From Isoptericola variabilis 225 (GTDB taxonomy: Bacteria > Actinomycetota > Actinomycetes > Actinomycetales > Cellulomonadaceae), in the NCBI RefSeq assembly GCF_000215105.1, contig NC_015588.1, positions 1,426,001-1,490,000 on the forward strand: 64,000 nucleotides of DNA, given 5' to 3'. The notes below the pieces were generated by a model, which saw nothing but the letters and a program-made list of their open reading frames with translations, was not told the origin of the DNA and made no database searches. Both the position numbers and the translations under genes were made by a program. The number at the start of each line of letters is the position of its first letter. Within the stretch, counting starts at the first letter, position 1. This document shows positions 25,513 to 51,735 of the stretch, piece after piece.

Positions 25513-28079
25513 TGCCCCGCATCGTCATGGACTGGCTCGCCGACCACGTCGAGCTCCCCGCCGACCTCACCGCCGAGCGCCTCGCGGCCGACCTCGTGCG
25601 CGTCGGTCTCGAGGAGGAGGCGATCCACGGCGCGGCCGTGACCGGCCCGCTCGTCGTGGGCCGCGTGCTCGAGCTGACCCCCGAGCCGCAGAAGAACGGC
25701 AAGACGATCAACTGGTGCCAGGTCGACGTCGGCGAGCACAACGCCGAGGGCGGCTCGCGCGGCATCGTGTGCGGCGCGCACAACTTCGGCGCGGGCGACC
25801 TCGTCGTCGTCGCACTGCCCGGCGCGGTGCTGCCGGGCGGCTTCGCGATCGCGAGCCGCAAGACGTACGGCCACGTCTCGGACGGCATGATCTGCTCGGT
25901 GCGCGAGCTCGGGATCGGCGACGACCACGACGGCATCATGGTGCTGACGCGGCACGGCTTCGCCGCGGACGACCTGACGCCCGGGCAGGACGCCGTCGCG
26001 CTGCTCGGCCTGGGCGACGAGGTGCTCGAGATCAACGTGACGCCCGACCGCGGGTACGCGTTCAGCTACCGCGGCGTGGCGCGCGAGTACGCGCACTCGA
26101 CCGGGGCGGCCTTCACCGACCGCGGGCTGCCGGAGGCGCTGCCGACGCCGCCGCCCGCGGCCACGCCGGACGGGTTCGTTGTCGAGGTGGACGACGCCGC
26201 GCCGATCGACGGCCAGGTCGGCTGCGACCGCTTCGTCACGCGCGTCGTGCGCGGGATCGACCCGTCCGCCCCGACGCCGGGCTGGATGAGGCGCCGCCTC
26301 GTGGGATCGGGCATGCGCTCGATCTCGCTCGCCGTGGACGTCACCAACTACGTCATGCTCGACCTCGGTCAGCCGCTGCACGCGTACGACCTCGAGAAGG
26401 TTGCCGCGCCGATCGTCGTGCGGCGTGCGGCGCCGGGCGAGCGGCTGACGACGCTCGACGGCGTCGAGCGCGCGCTCGACGCCGAGGACCTGCTCATCAC
26501 CGACTCGCCCTCGGGCGCGCGCGGCTCGCGCGTGCTCGGCCTGGCCGGCGTCATGGGCGGGGCGTCGTCCGAGGTGAGCGCCACGACGACGGACGTGCTC
26601 GTCGAGGCCGCCCACTTCGACCCCGTCTCGGTCGCCCGGACCGCGCGGCGCCACAAGCTGCCGTCGGAGGCCGCCAAGCGCTTCGAGCGCGGCGTCGACC
26701 CGAGGCTGCCGGCGGTCGCCGCCCAGCGCGTGGTCGACCTGCTCGTCGAGCTCGGAGGCGGCAAGGCCGACCCCGCCGTGGGCGACCTCGACACCACGAC
26801 GCCGCCCGCGGCCGTCGCGTTCGACGTGACGCTGGCCGCGCGGCTCGCGGGCGTGCCGTACACGCGCGAGCAGGTCGTGAGCACGCTCGAGCAGATCGGA
26901 TGCACGGTCGCCGAGCCCGTGGACGGCTCGACCGACGTCCTCGTGACCCCGCCGACGTGGCGCCCCGACCTCACGGAGCCCGCCGCGCTCGTCGAGGAGG
27001 TCGTGCGCATCCAGGGCTACGACCAGGTGCCGTCGGTGCTGCCGGCGGCGCCGGGCGGGCGCGGGCTCACGGCCGAGCAGCGCACGCGCCGCTCGGTGGC
27101 GCGGGCCCTCGCGGAGGCCGGCCTCGTCGAGGTGCTGTCGTACCCGTTCGTCGGCACGGCGGACCTCGACGCGCTCGGCCTGCCCGCCGACGACGAGCGC
27201 CGCACGGCGCTGCGCCTGCTCAACCCGCTCGCCGACGACCGGCCGCTCCTGCGCACCCACCTGCTGGTGACGCTGCTCGAGACCGCGCGCCGCAACGTGG
27301 CCCGCGGCCTGGACGACTTCGGGGTGTTCGAGCTCGGCCTCGTCACGCGCCCCACGCCGGGCGCGCCCGCCGCGCCGCAGCTGCCCGTCGGCGTCCGGCC
27401 GTCCGACGCGGACCTCGAGGTGCTCGCCCGTGCGGTGCCGCACCAGCCGCGCCACGTGGCCGGCGTGTTCGTGGGGCGCGCCGCGCCGGCCGGATGGTGG
27501 GGCGCCGGCCGCCGCGCGGACTGGGCCGACGCCGTCGAGGCGGCGCAGCTCGTCGCGCGCCGGGTGGGCGTCCGGCTGACCCCGGCCGCCGACGCCACCA
27601 CCATGCCGTGGCACCCCGGACGCTGCGCGTCGCTCGCGCTCGCGGACGGCACCGTCGTCGGGCACGCGGGCGAGCTGCACCCCACGGTCGTCGAGCGCCT
27701 CGGCCTGCCCGCGCGCGCGTCGGCGTTCGAGCTCGACCTCTCCGCGATGGTCGACGCCGCGAGCGACGAGCCCGTCGCGGCGACGCCCATCTCGGCGTTC
27801 CCCGCGGCCAAGGAGGACTTCGCCTTCGTCGTCGACGCGGACGTCCCCGCGGCCGACGTCCACGCGGCGATCGTCGCGGGCGCCGGCGAGCTGCTCGAGG
27901 AGGCGCACCTGTTCGACGTCTTCACGGGCGAGCAGGTGGGCGAGGGCAAGAAGTCGCTCGCGTACTCCCTGCGGCTGCGCGCGGCGGACCGGACGCTCAC
28001 GGCCGACGAGGTGCGGGCGGTGCGCGAGGGCGTCGTCGCGGCCGCGGCCGAGCGGGTGGGGGCGGTCCTGCGTGGCTGA
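25512..28079 (+). CDS. pheT: Phenylalanine-tRNA ligase beta subunit
   Basis: PheT is the structural and editing subunit (855 residues). Order of domains: an OB-fold tRNA-binding EMAP-type domain near residues 40-150 (VVGRVLELTPEPQ, VCGAHNFGAGD), the B3/B4 editing domain (LAVDVTNYVMLDLGQPLHAY), B5 (YDQVPSVLP region), a catalytic-like core and the C-terminal FDX-ACB anticodon domain (AFPAAKEDFAFVVD). Length is typical. The stop overlaps the SDR start by 8 nt. In mycobacteria argC follows nearby; here 6.3 kb of other genes intervene. Confidence 0.97.
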
Positions 28080-32026: not shown

Positions 32027-33010
32027 TCAGGGCACGAGCAGCACCTTGCCGGTCGTCCGGCGGGCCTCGAGCGCGGCGTGCGCCTCGGCGGCCTCGGCGA
32101 GCGGGTAGGCCGCGCCCACGCGCACCTCGAGGTCCCCGGCCGCCGCGGCGCCCAGCACCTCGCCCGCCCGCCACTCGAGCTCGGCACGCGTCGCGGTGTA
32201 GTGCGCGAGCGTGGGGCGCGTGAGGTAGAGCGACCCGCCCGAGTTCAGGCGCTGCGGGTCGAAGGGTGGGACCTGCCCGGACGCGCCGCCGAAGAGCACG
32301 AGCGTCCCGCGCCGGCGCAGCGACGCGAGCGACGCGTCGAACGTGGCCCGCCCGACGCCGTCGTACGCCACGTGCACGCCCTCGCCGTCGGTGAGGTCGC
32401 GCACGACGGCGGGCAGCTCGGACGTGATGTCGTCCATCGCCGCGTAGTCGATCGTGTGCGCCGCCCCGGCCTGCGCCGACAGGGCCGCCTTCTCGGGCGA
32501 CGAGACGGTCGTGAGCACGCGCGCGCCGCGCGCGACGGCGAGCTGCGTGGCGAGCAGCCCCACCCCGCCGGCACCGGCGGTGAGCAGCACGTCATGGCCG
32601 TAGCCGACCTCGAACGTCGAGGCCACGAGGTAGTGCGCCGTCATGCCCTGCAGCGGCAGCGCCGCCGCGGTCCGCAGGTCGAGTCCCGCCGGAACGCGCA
32701 CGGCCTGCGCCGCGGGGACCGCGACGAGCTCGGCGTACGAGCCGTGGGTGTCGTGCCACGCGACCTCGTCGCCGACCGCGAAGGTCGTGACGCCCTCGCC
32801 GACGGCCTCCACGACGCCCGCGCCCTCGACGCCGACGACGTGGGGGTACTCCATGGGGTACACGCCGCCGCGCCGGTAGGTGTCGATGAAGTTGACGCCC
32901 GCCGCGGCGACCCGCACGAGGACCTCGCCGGGGCCGGGCGAGGGGTCGGGGAGCTCGACGAGTGCCAGGACCTCGGGACCGCCCGCCTCGCGGGCCACGA
33001 CTGCACGCAT
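32027..33010 (-). CDS. NADPH:quinone oxidoreductase (zinc-independent MDR family)
   Basis: The 327-residue medium-chain reductase matches quinone oxidoreductases of the QOR type. It has the GroES-like N-domain (GPGEVLVRVAAAGVNFIDTY, YPHVVGVEGAGVVEAVGEGV) and the NADPH-binding Rossmann domain with the AxxGxxG motif in LLTAGAGGVGLLATQLA. Structural and catalytic zinc ligands of alcohol dehydrogenases are absent. It would reduce quinones with NADPH in the cytoplasm. Its ribosome site AGGAG lies 6 nt before the ATG and directly after the stop of the IS110 transposase, so the element sits where its promoter would be expected. It may now depend on read-through from the transposase. Confidence 0.88.
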   Translation of the reverse strand: MRAVVAREAGGPEVLALVELPDPSPGPGEVLVRVAAAGVNFIDTYRRGGVYPMEYPHVVGVEGAGVVEAVGEGVTTFAVGDEVAWHDTHGSYAELVAVPAAQAVRVPAGLDLRTAAALPLQGMTAHYLVASTFEVGYGHDVLLTAGAGGVGLLATQLAVARGARVLTTVSSPEKAALSAQAGAAHTIDYAAMDDITSELPAVVRDLTDGEGVHVAYDGVGRATFDASLASLRRRGTLVLFGGASGQVPPFDPQRLNSGGSLYLTRPTLAHYTATRAELEWRAGEVLGAAAAGDLEVRVGAAYPLAEAAEAHAALEARRTTGKVLLVP

Positions 33011-33024
33011 GCGTTTCTCCTATG

Positions 33025-34080
33025 TCAAGCCGCTGTCGCGTACTGTGCTGCGGCGGCAGCTTGCTGGGCGTTCTTGAGGGTGTTGAACACGACTCGGGCG
33101 AGTCGGCGTTTGAGGCAGCGCAGGGCTTCGGTCTTCGAGTCGCCGGCCGCGAGCCGCTTGTCGTAGTAGGCCTTGCCGAGCCCCCCGAGGCGGATCTGGG
33201 TGACGGCGATGCGGTGCAGGGCCGCATTGAGCTGCCGGTTGCCCGACTTGTTGAGGCGGACCTTGCCGGCGGTGCGTCCGGACCAGACCGGGATCGGCGC
33301 GACGCCGGCGTGCATGGCGTACTTGGCCTCGTGGGCGAACCGGCCGATCCCGGCGGTCTCGCCGAGGATCTTGGCCGCAGTCAGCGGCCCGCAGCCGGGC
33401 AGCTCGAGCAGCTCGGGCGCGAGCTGGTCAGCCAGCTGGGCAATCTCCTTGGCCAGCGCGTCCGCCCGCGCCGTGAGCGCGGCGACGTCGTCGAGCAGCT
33501 CGCGGGCCAGGCGGGCATCGATGCCTTCGATGCCGGTGAGGAACTCCGCCAGCCGGGCCCGTGTGGACGCCCGGTCCAACGACTGGGGCGCCGGGTCCAG
33601 GGCCGGGTCGATCCGGTGCAGGTGCCAGCGCAGCCGGTTGATGATCGCGGTGCGCTGCCGCACCAGGTCCTCGCGGTGGTCGACCAGCAGCTTGACCTCC
33701 CGCGACGCCTCGTCATGGGACGCGGCGGGCAGGTCGGGCTCGCGCAGCACCGCACGGGCCACGGCCAGGGCGTCGATCGGGTCCGACTTGCCCCGGGTGC
33801 GGGCGACCCGGCGCTGCTCGGCCATCATCTTCGGCGGCACCCGCACCACCTGCTGCCCGGCGTCCAGCAGGTCCAGCTCCAGGCGGGCCGACAGGTGCCG
33901 GCAGTCCTCGACGCCCCACCGCAGGTCAGTCCCGAACGTCGACTCGGCCCAGCGCACCGCCTTGTCATGACCCTGGGCATCGGCCTTCACCGTCATCTGG
34001 CCGAGCCGGCGGCCGGCCGGGTCGACCGCGACGAACGTGTGTGAACGCTTGTGGACATCGGCACCGACAACGACAACCAT
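33025..34080 (-). CDS. IS110-family transposase (DEDD recombinase)
   Basis: The 351-residue protein has the IS110 layout. The N-terminal RuvC-like DEDD domain shows VVGADVHKRSHTFVAVD (first Asp), WGVEDCRHL, and RTRGKSDPIDALAVARA (late Asp pair). A coiled coil follows around residues 130-160. The C-terminal Transposase_20 domain shows ELPGCGPLTAAKILGETAG and the conserved serine region in VRLNKSGNRQLNAALHRIA. It looks complete. The IS621 member of this family is guided by a bridge RNA from the non-coding end. ATG at 34080 has GAGGAGG 8 nt upstream. It probably still works, but the host genes around it are partly decayed. Confidence 0.95.
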   Translation of the reverse strand: MVVVVGADVHKRSHTFVAVDPAGRRLGQMTVKADAQGHDKAVRWAESTFGTDLRWGVEDCRHLSARLELDLLDAGQQVVRVPPKMMAEQRRVARTRGKSDPIDALAVARAVLREPDLPAASHDEASREVKLLVDHREDLVRQRTAIINRLRWHLHRIDPALDPAPQSLDRASTRARLAEFLTGIEGIDARLARELLDDVAALTARADALAKEIAQLADQLAPELLELPGCGPLTAAKILGETAGIGRFAHEAKYAMHAGVAPIPVWSGRTAGKVRLNKSGNRQLNAALHRIAVTQIRLGGLGKAYYDKRLAAGDSKTEALRCLKRRLARVVFNTLKNAQQAAAAAQYATAA

Positions 34081-34084
34081 GGTG

Positions 34085-34385
34085 GTTGCCTCCTCTCACC
34101 TGATCAGTGACGGGGACGGTCGGACCGGCCGGCGGACACATCTCAGTGGGGGCGACGCCACGCTCCTATCAAGTCACGCCGGCCGGTCCCTTCACACCCG
34201 GCGCCGGCACAACGCATGCAGGTCAGGCCACAGGCCGACACCGAGGCTATGAGCCAGGCACCAGACGTGAAGGGATCCAACCACCGCAACCGCGGCACAT
34301 CCACCCTCACACTGACCCGAGACTATGCGAGGGTCGATGCGACGCAGGCCCTGCGGTGCCCGCATGCCGGACGGCGCCACGAGCG
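34085..34385 (-). ncRNA. Candidate IS110 bridge RNA locus
   Basis: This stretch upstream of the transposase has no plausible gene. It is where IS110-group elements encode the bridge RNA, in the same sense as the transposase. A perfect 13-bp stem (34122-34134 with 34177-34189) closes a 42-nt loop. In the loop, CTCCTATCAAG on the plus strand (34163-34173) resembles CTCCTATGTCAAG at the element/qor junction (33017-33029). Guide loops that pair with the DNA ends or target are the hallmark of these RNAs. RNA ends and loop assignment are not determinable here. Confidence 0.5.
34122..34189. repeat. 13-bp perfect inverted repeat in the IS110 non-coding end
   Basis: GGACCGGCCGGCG at 34122-34134 is the exact reverse complement of CGCCGGCCGGTCC at 34177-34189. 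The 42-nt loop is less GC-rich than the stem. A stem this long outside a terminator context is best explained as RNA structure of the element. Confidence 0.8.
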
Positions 34386-34386
34386 C

Positions 34387-34413
34387 TGCATAGGTATGTA
34401 TAGTTCTGCATAT
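34387..34413 (+). promoter_or_regulatory. argC promoter overlapping a predicted ArgR (ARG) box
   Basis: The AT-rich tract TGCATAGGTATGTA (34387-34400), then TAGTTCTGCATA, contains two TGCATA half-sites and an imperfect TGCATA-N2-TATGNA palindrome like known ARG boxes. TATAGT at 34399-34404 is a good -10 hexamer 7 nt before the argC ATG (34412). Transcription would start at the ATG, making the mRNA leaderless, and ArgR bound here would cover the -10 site. argR is the sixth gene of the cluster. Confidence 0.55.
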
Positions 34414-46350: not shown

Positions 46351-51502
<5,152 letters not shown>

Positions 51503-51616
51503 ACCCACTCCTTCAATGCACGCGTCCACTGTGCGGTTCCCGAGCAACGGGCACCACCCCCACCACCACACCACCAGGTGCGGCGGCACCGGGGGCACCC
51601 CGAACAGCTCCATACA

Positions 51617-51735
51617 GTTACGGCGGTCATAGCGAAGGGGAAACGCCCGGTCCCATTCCGAACCCGGAAGCTCAGCCCTTCAGCGCCGATGGTACTGCCC
51701 CCGCCAGGGGGTGGGAGAGTAGGACGCCGCCGGAC
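51617..51735 (+). rRNA. rrf: 5S ribosomal RNA
   Basis: About 119 nt starting GTTACGGCGGTCATAGCGAA, with the conserved CGCCCGGTCCCATTCCGAAC loop and GGGTGGGAGAGTAGGACGCC near the end. It follows 23S by 114 bp and precedes a strong terminator, completing the rrn operon. Ends are estimated from the helix I pairing. Confidence 0.95.

Follow-up and report, generated by a model that had tools for sequence, protein, structure and literature searches.

A predicted bridge RNA in an IS110-group insertion sequence of Isoptericola variabilis 225, with a target-binding loop complementary to a leaderless-type gene start

Insertion sequences of the IS621 type encode a recombinase with the domains PF01548 and PF02371 and carry, in the left end, an RNA composed of a 5' stem-loop, a target loop and a donor loop (PMC11208160, PMC11208158). 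According to the available parts of these accounts, the left guide reads the bottom strand and the right guide the top strand, the handshake bases are paired with the other DNA once exchange has taken place, IS621 and its kin have a CT core common to target and donor, and a promoter lies at the circle junction. The catalytic serine of IS621 is S241 (PMC11208158). The element described here resembles IS621 in its domains, in the placement and build of its predicted RNA and in the way the guides and handshake bases are read, and differs in its target: the IS110 targets named in the accessible text of PMC11208160 are REP elements, whereas here a leaderless-type gene start is used.

Three further members of the IS110 family are comparable. 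ISEc21, with its seekRNA, likewise has an upstream non-coding RNA with two target-matching stretches and makes no target duplication, and ISMch6 is reported alongside it as a natural case of redirection, again similar to what is found here; in contrast, ISEc21 targets IS3-family transposase genes, and a junction promoter was shown for it (PMC11187229, as far as its available text goes). ISKrh6 from Kocuria rhizophila is an actinobacterial IS110-family element whose seekRNA region was assigned by analogy in the accessible part of the report (PMC12500396); that part gives neither exact ends nor a target for it, and it is likened here by description, not by sequence. IS900 of Mycobacterium avium subsp. 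paratuberculosis targets translation start signals (PMC8141618), similar to the NN(A/G)TG found at the right flank of 38 of the 44 elements compared below. The motif reported for it, CATGNNNNNNTCTCCTT, represents a start codon with the Shine-Dalgarno sequence on the other strand, and only three genes were reported as disrupted in the part of that paper available (PMC8141618). IS900 parts the Shine-Dalgarno sequence from the start codon, while the present element parts the -10 box from it. The hed frame opposite the IS900 transposase is said to gain (PMC8141618), whereas our recombinase runs in the direction of the host gene; the IS900 orientation was deduced from the description of hed. IS900 is the nearest reported IS110 case at translation signals, but its motif differs and its orientation, going by the description, is opposite.

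Leaderless bacterial genes, which make up over twenty percent in Actinobacteria, have a TANNNT motif about 12 bp upstream of the start (PMC3160421). The motif is centred 7-12 bp before the transcription start, and starts are purines, commonly with C at -1 and T at +2 (PMC3898074; both sources as far as available). The titles and abstract openings listed in a search of the open-licence literature, with subscription papers and preprints outside its scope, did not describe IS110 elements at leaderless promoters.

Element, ends and recombinase

The insertion sequence lies in the window, i.e. the whole stretch of 64,000 nucleotides that was analysed, and its features are listed in Table 1. An rRNA operon (16S, 23S, 5S) occupies 46351-51735 of the same window.

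Table 1. Coordinates of the element, its predicted RNA and its host target in the window
Feature	Position	Strand	Remarks
IS110-group insertion sequence	33013-34315	minus	1,303 bp; ends 5' TCAGTGTGAG ... ATAGGAGAAAC 3'
DEDD-serine recombinase	33025-34080	minus	351 aa
Left non-coding end	34081-34315	minus	235 nt
Right end	33013-33024	minus	12 nt, with donor site ATAGGAG-AAAC including Shine-Dalgarno-like AGGAG
Left half of host target, ATAGTCTCGGG	34316-34326	minus	-10-like TAGTCT at 34320-34325
Right half of host target, GC-ATG	33008-33012	minus	ATG is the start codon of a zinc-type dehydrogenase (32027-33010)
Predicted target and donor			target TAGCCTCGG-N-GCATG; donor ATAGGAGAAACTCAGTG
Bridge RNA (predicted extent)	34118-34315	minus	5' end probably near 34313, 3' end placed at the last consensus helix
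5' stem-loop CCGC-GGTT-GCGG	34284-34295	minus	consensus helix holds only its two inner pairs
Target-binding loop with closing stem and inner hairpin	34195-34267	minus	stem arms 34253-34267 and 34195-34208; hairpin 34222-34239
Left target guide ATAGCCTCGG	34241-34250	minus	one difference from left flank
Right target guide GCATGC	34214-34219	minus	complementary to GCATGC at start codon
Handshake guide GTTG	34210-34213	minus	would pair with donor AAAC after strand exchange, one mismatch
Donor-loop stem, 5' arm	34177-34189	minus	
Left donor guide ATAGGAG	34163-34169	minus	same letters in the element's right end
Right donor guide CACTGA	34143-34148	minus	complementary to TCAGTG at left end
Donor-loop stem, 3' arm	34122-34134	minus	

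The ends were determined by alignment of the copies in the own genome and from repeat targets that relatives had split without loss or duplication. Four copies, 99.3-100% identical across the element, share a sequence that starts with TCAGTGT and finishes with AGGAGAAAC; in one of them (L004), the recombinase is frameshifted by a 1-nt insertion and the non-coding end carries a 2-nt insertion. Among the relatives from the genome collection, the left end was the same in 16, and the right end in 13 and three broken copies. Three elements of genome G669 split repeats of the type GTGTGCARACAC^GCACGCTCGCGG (GTGTAC in one), and a pattern search there returned 25 element-free places, of which 24 equal the joined flanks in length and one is shorter. 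In genome G407, a repeat is split by two elements, and its 3 unbroken copies read GCCCAAACCGACGTTTGG, identical to the joined flanks of one. At these exactly checkable junctions, no target bases were lost and none duplicated. The element begins at 34315; therefore, the interval of the preliminary description overshoots by 70 nt. What that description had observed of the stem and a full-length recombinase stands, while the end of its interval (34316-34385) is host DNA.

Both recombinase domains scored above the cut-off, PF01548 (DEDD_Tnp_IS110) with 101.7 bits and PF02371 (Transposase_20) with 72 bits, in agreement with the full-length DEDD-serine recombinase proposed earlier. The protein matches the solved ISCro4 and IS621 proteins, chiefly across the C-terminal part; the alignment of the RuvC part falls short of significance by itself (i-Evalue 5.8 to IS621, 0.033 to ISCro4). 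D8, E58, D100, D103 and S267 align with IS621 (chain 8wt6), and we take the first four to be the residues after which DEDD is named. The left non-coding end, which holds the predicted RNA, is far longer than the right one. Judged by the domains, the DEDD and serine residues, the lengths of the ends and the lack of a target duplication, the insertion sequence, which is intact, is a member of the IS110 family, IS110 group. The circle junction would read ATAGGAGAAAC-TCAGTG.

The element is not common, because 18 of 396 genomes in the order and 15 of 394 in the class, with the own genome counted, hold relatives at E <= 1e-90. Altogether, 64 loci matched the recombinase, and both end motifs were found at the expected distances in 47. 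The other 17 are L068-L076, L080, L093, L094, L095, L103, L106, L078 and L088; the last two have a visible right end but no left motif. Removal of L067, which is the same element as L026, and of L060, which lacks a left flank, gave 45 elements, and L104, a nested copy, was left out of the guide comparisons, which comprise 44. L062 has a tandem duplication of the initial 24 bases of its left end, and its left flank was read at the outer of the two.

Fold of the predicted bridge RNA

A perfect 13-bp stem with a 42-nt loop had been reported at this end of the element and was confirmed to the base (Table 1, donor-loop stem). Perfect inverted repeats that are 13 bp or longer and enclose a loop of 3-60 nt occur 4 times in the GC-rich window, and at least one was present in 26 of 50 dinucleotide shuffles of it; the stem as proof on its own was rejected for this frequency of chance stems. 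Folding of 34081-34400, which includes 85 nt of host DNA, gave z = -4.0 against shuffles, none of 100 being as good.

Twenty-eight non-coding ends (the window copy and 27 relatives) were aligned out of 34 rows; L003, L004, L022, L082, L090 and L096 were left out, L090 being one of the elements with another target. The consensus comprises 48 pairs, and 98.9% of 1,331 cells were paired, a figure favoured by the derivation of the structure from the same 28 rows; slid alignments paired at 28-47%, and the shuffled controls were far off as well. Compensatory changes on both sides were present in 14 pairs, compared to 6.1 in shuffles, and in 51 cells, compared to 12.4, with none of 500 shuffles as high. 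In helices 4 and 5, which belong to the target loop, 12 of the 21 pairs are changed on both sides. The features of a bridge RNA, i.e. a conserved fold, a 5' stem-loop and two internal loops, are present in this structure, which comes from the same alignment.

The 13-bp stem closes the donor loop. That it is kept among copies was borne out for 8 of its 13 pairs, which are formed in all 28 rows and lie within the consensus helix; three of the remaining pairs are kept in 25-28 rows and two in 4 and 7 rows, and the whole set of 13 is found in only 3 of 28. Among these 28 rows, the stem is thus conserved in an interrupted form, with two interruptions in most rows. Its 8 constant pairs are conservation, not covariation; the covariation sits in the target-loop stem and the inner hairpin.

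At the gathering threshold, Rfam returned rRNAs only and no IS110 RNA family. Since Rfam had no match, a covariance model was built from 20 relatives, none of them from this genome, and it located the window RNA at 34124-34282 on the minus strand (151 bits, E = 1.3e-33). A structural match, the absence of which had been named as evidence against a bridge RNA, was thereby found. Two weaker matches, at 34084-34187 on the plus strand (E 0.0024) and 25814-25930 on the minus strand (E 0.032), were taken for noise.

The stem might instead terminate or attenuate transcription of the recombinase gene and be no part of a guide RNA. A GC-rich hairpin does precede the gene; nevertheless, no T-run follows the 3' arm, guide sequences lie in both internal loops, and the stem is part of a larger conserved fold, and we consider this explanation extremely improbable.

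Guides and targets at leaderless-type gene starts

In the first internal loop, the left guide ATAGCCTCGG is close to the left flank ATAGTCTCGG. One element was taken for each distinct left guide (29 guides), and the left guides matched their own flanks at 238 of 261 positions, compared to 148 +/- 6 after permutation and none of 100,000 permutations as high; permutation does not remove the kinship of the elements. The cognate flank was the best or tied best for 27 of the 29. The right guides matched their own flanks at 130 of 145 positions, compared to 107 when permuted. The target sites of related elements lie at different genes. The donor guides ATAGGAG and CACTGA in the second loop are complementary to the element ends and nearly invariant, which amounts to complementarity alone, without covariation. 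The covariation of guides and targets is explained by a bridge or seek RNA and by nothing else that was considered. The reading as a bridge RNA offered by the preliminary description is therefore supported by the covariance-model match, by the conservation of the stem and by the match of the 29 distinct left guides to their own flanks.

The exact ends of the element and the apparent aiming of the RNA at a promoter plus start codon go beyond that description. As judged from its letters, the target-binding loop complements a gene start of the leaderless type, and the element sits between the -10 box and the start codon. The left guide covers the box together with the bases that follow it, and the right guide covers the sequence surrounding the start codon. 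Of the 29 left guides, 23 keep T1, A2 and T6 unchanged, and the N positions vary.

A TANNNT motif, i.e. a -10 promoter box, was present in the left flank of 34 of 44 elements. The right flank reads NN(A/G)TG, with ATG or GTG two bases past the right end, in 38 elements, including all 34 with the box; four have the start codon without TANNNT, and six have other targets. When the flank lengths were added, the spacer between box and start codon was 6 nt in 27 of the 34, 7 nt in 5, 5 nt in 1 and 8 nt in 1. This spacing at the predicted target sites is what leaderless genes show.

Frames downstream of 39 of the 45 elements (L104 included) had a median of 255 codons and reached at least 60 codons in 34 cases; four closed before 60 codons and one was cut by the end of the contig. 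Control starts in other frames (n = 246) had a median of 46 codons, and 42% reached 60 in this GC-rich DNA. For the perfect-target pattern TAGCCTCG-N1-5-CRTG, the own genome has 4 matches and the backwards control has 1.

Empty sites were inspected in 17 other genomes of the genus, where 17, 5, 15 and 14 genes matched the one behind each own copy. TANNNT, a spacer of 6-7 nt and a start codon were found at 17/17, 5/5, 10/15 and 10/14 of the orthologous sites, i.e. at 42 of 51. The nine sites without the motif include some that look operon-internal, some with a Shine-Dalgarno-like GGGAGG and some from a match that started inside the gene. One miss (L156) has TAGCCT-N7-ATG slightly further upstream, which was left uncounted.

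All four copies of the own genome precede open frames of 89-327 codons. This would also be expected if the element were selected rather than aimed, with random insertions of which the harmless ones ahead of start codons survived. In contrast to such an origin, the guide matches its site and changes with it across the 29 guides, and repeat targets are split at one fixed point. Selection of this kind is thus very unlikely to account for the pattern on its own.

Several loci have guides or targets of another kind. L089, L099 and L102, as well as L101 and L105, are near relatives that split palindrome-like repeats, with guides matching. L104 is inserted directly after the left-guide DNA of another copy, as if the guide gene served as half a target; its right flank would be explained by later recombination. 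L068-L076 and L080 form a branch with about 50% identity and different left ends, in which the guide has again been redirected naturally. Their surroundings read, as we assume, like the orfA/orfB region of IS3-type transposase genes.

Handshake bases and a proposed mechanism with promoter capture

The four bases directly after the right guide are GTTT, GTAT, GTTG or GTAG and tend to vary together with the element's final four bases (AAAC, ATAC, CAAC or CAAT, CTAT). GTTT occurs with AAAC in 29 of 44 elements. Three elements, the window copy included, depart from the pattern with GTTG against AAAC, two with GTTT against CAAT and one with GTTT against TAAC; within the own genome, GTTG is found in the window copy and one sister copy and GTTT in the other two. 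Over the guide set, 109 of 116 handshake bases matched, compared to 99 when permuted. With wobbles counted, pairing with the donor is possible at 170 of 176 positions, and pairing with their own target at 98 of 176. For the covariation, the informative elements are the 15 of 44 other than GTTT-AAAC, 3 of which have GTTG against AAAC. In the IS621 structures, cleavage of the top strands follows position 9, and the strand coming in is paired by the other loop (PMC11208158, as far as its available text describes). The pairing counts fit these structures and are natural evidence that handshake pairing involves four positions.

Unlike the common CT core of IS621, positions 8-9 of target and donor, set by analogy with IS621, agree in only 2 of 44 elements. 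Core dinucleotides common to both ends (CT, CG, TA, TC and TG) were sought by eye, and none fits all elements. It seems from this that elements of this branch can do without a core dinucleotide common to target and donor, a point of relevance for the reprogramming of bridge recombinases.

By inference from IS621, the recombinase and the bridge RNA would bring the excised circle to a leaderless-type start. Cleavage of the top strands there would separate position 9 from position 10, and the four GTTT-type bases that follow the right guide would pair with the incoming donor (AAAC type). After insertion, the third base of the element, the A of TCAG, occupies the place of the first base of the start codon; therefore, the leaderless promoter should start the bridge RNA there. 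Going by this spacing, the captured host promoter would initiate transcription at about that base and yield both the recombinase message and the bridge RNA. At this putative start, C at -1 and A at +1 fit, while G at +2 departs from the pattern. Since the left guide copies the -10 box, such an element carries one internally.

At the other end, the recombinase stop codon ends 14 nt ahead of the host start codon, and AGGAG lies six bases ahead of it. The transcript would run on into the host gene, which would be translated from the AGGAG of the element end, and after excision the gene would again be leaderless, as it was originally. The AGGAG motif is conserved in elements away from gene starts as well, and its putative role in ribosome binding may be a by-product of the donor site.

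Alternatively, the RNA could be an ordinary IS110 bridge RNA whose target is a conserved motif by coincidence, with no role of the host promoter in expression and with transcription from a circle promoter as in IS621. Six of the 44 elements have the same architecture at palindrome-like or other targets, and IS621 and ISEc21 were reported with a junction promoter (PMC11208160, PMC11187229, in the text available of each). A circle promoter was considered for the present element: a -35-like TTGACA is found at the right end, but it spans the recombinase stop codon, and in a motif scan no TANNNT follows at any of the 45 joined ends, in which the element differs from IS621. Furthermore, T1, A2 and T6 are kept in 23 of 29 guides while the rest varies, and A3 of the element replaces the first base of the start codon. 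We regard this alternative as rather doubtful.

The best overall explanation, which we hold with good confidence, is an IS110-group bridge RNA aimed at a leaderless-type start, with presumed guided insertion, capture of the promoter and donation of AGGAG to the host gene. The group as a whole does not need promoter capture, because six of 44 elements have other targets, four lack TANNNT and the branch of about 50% identity lies elsewhere. A broader proposal, to which we lean with some reserve, is a lineage of IS110 elements in Actinomycetes with bridge RNAs naturally programmed to leaderless promoters, in which the integrated copy and not the circle is expressed, the bridge RNA starts at A3 from the host -10 box, the host gene is repaid with a Shine-Dalgarno sequence and becomes the last cistron of an operon with bridge RNA and recombinase, and a four-base handshake replaces the shared core. 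It makes a clear prediction on which form of the element is transcribed.

A further locus, outside the counts, was observed on a plasmid of Mycobacterium intracellulare (L130, NZ_CP015268.1); it has the same architecture, with TACCGT in the left flank, the guide GTACCGTCGG and the right flank GT-GTG.
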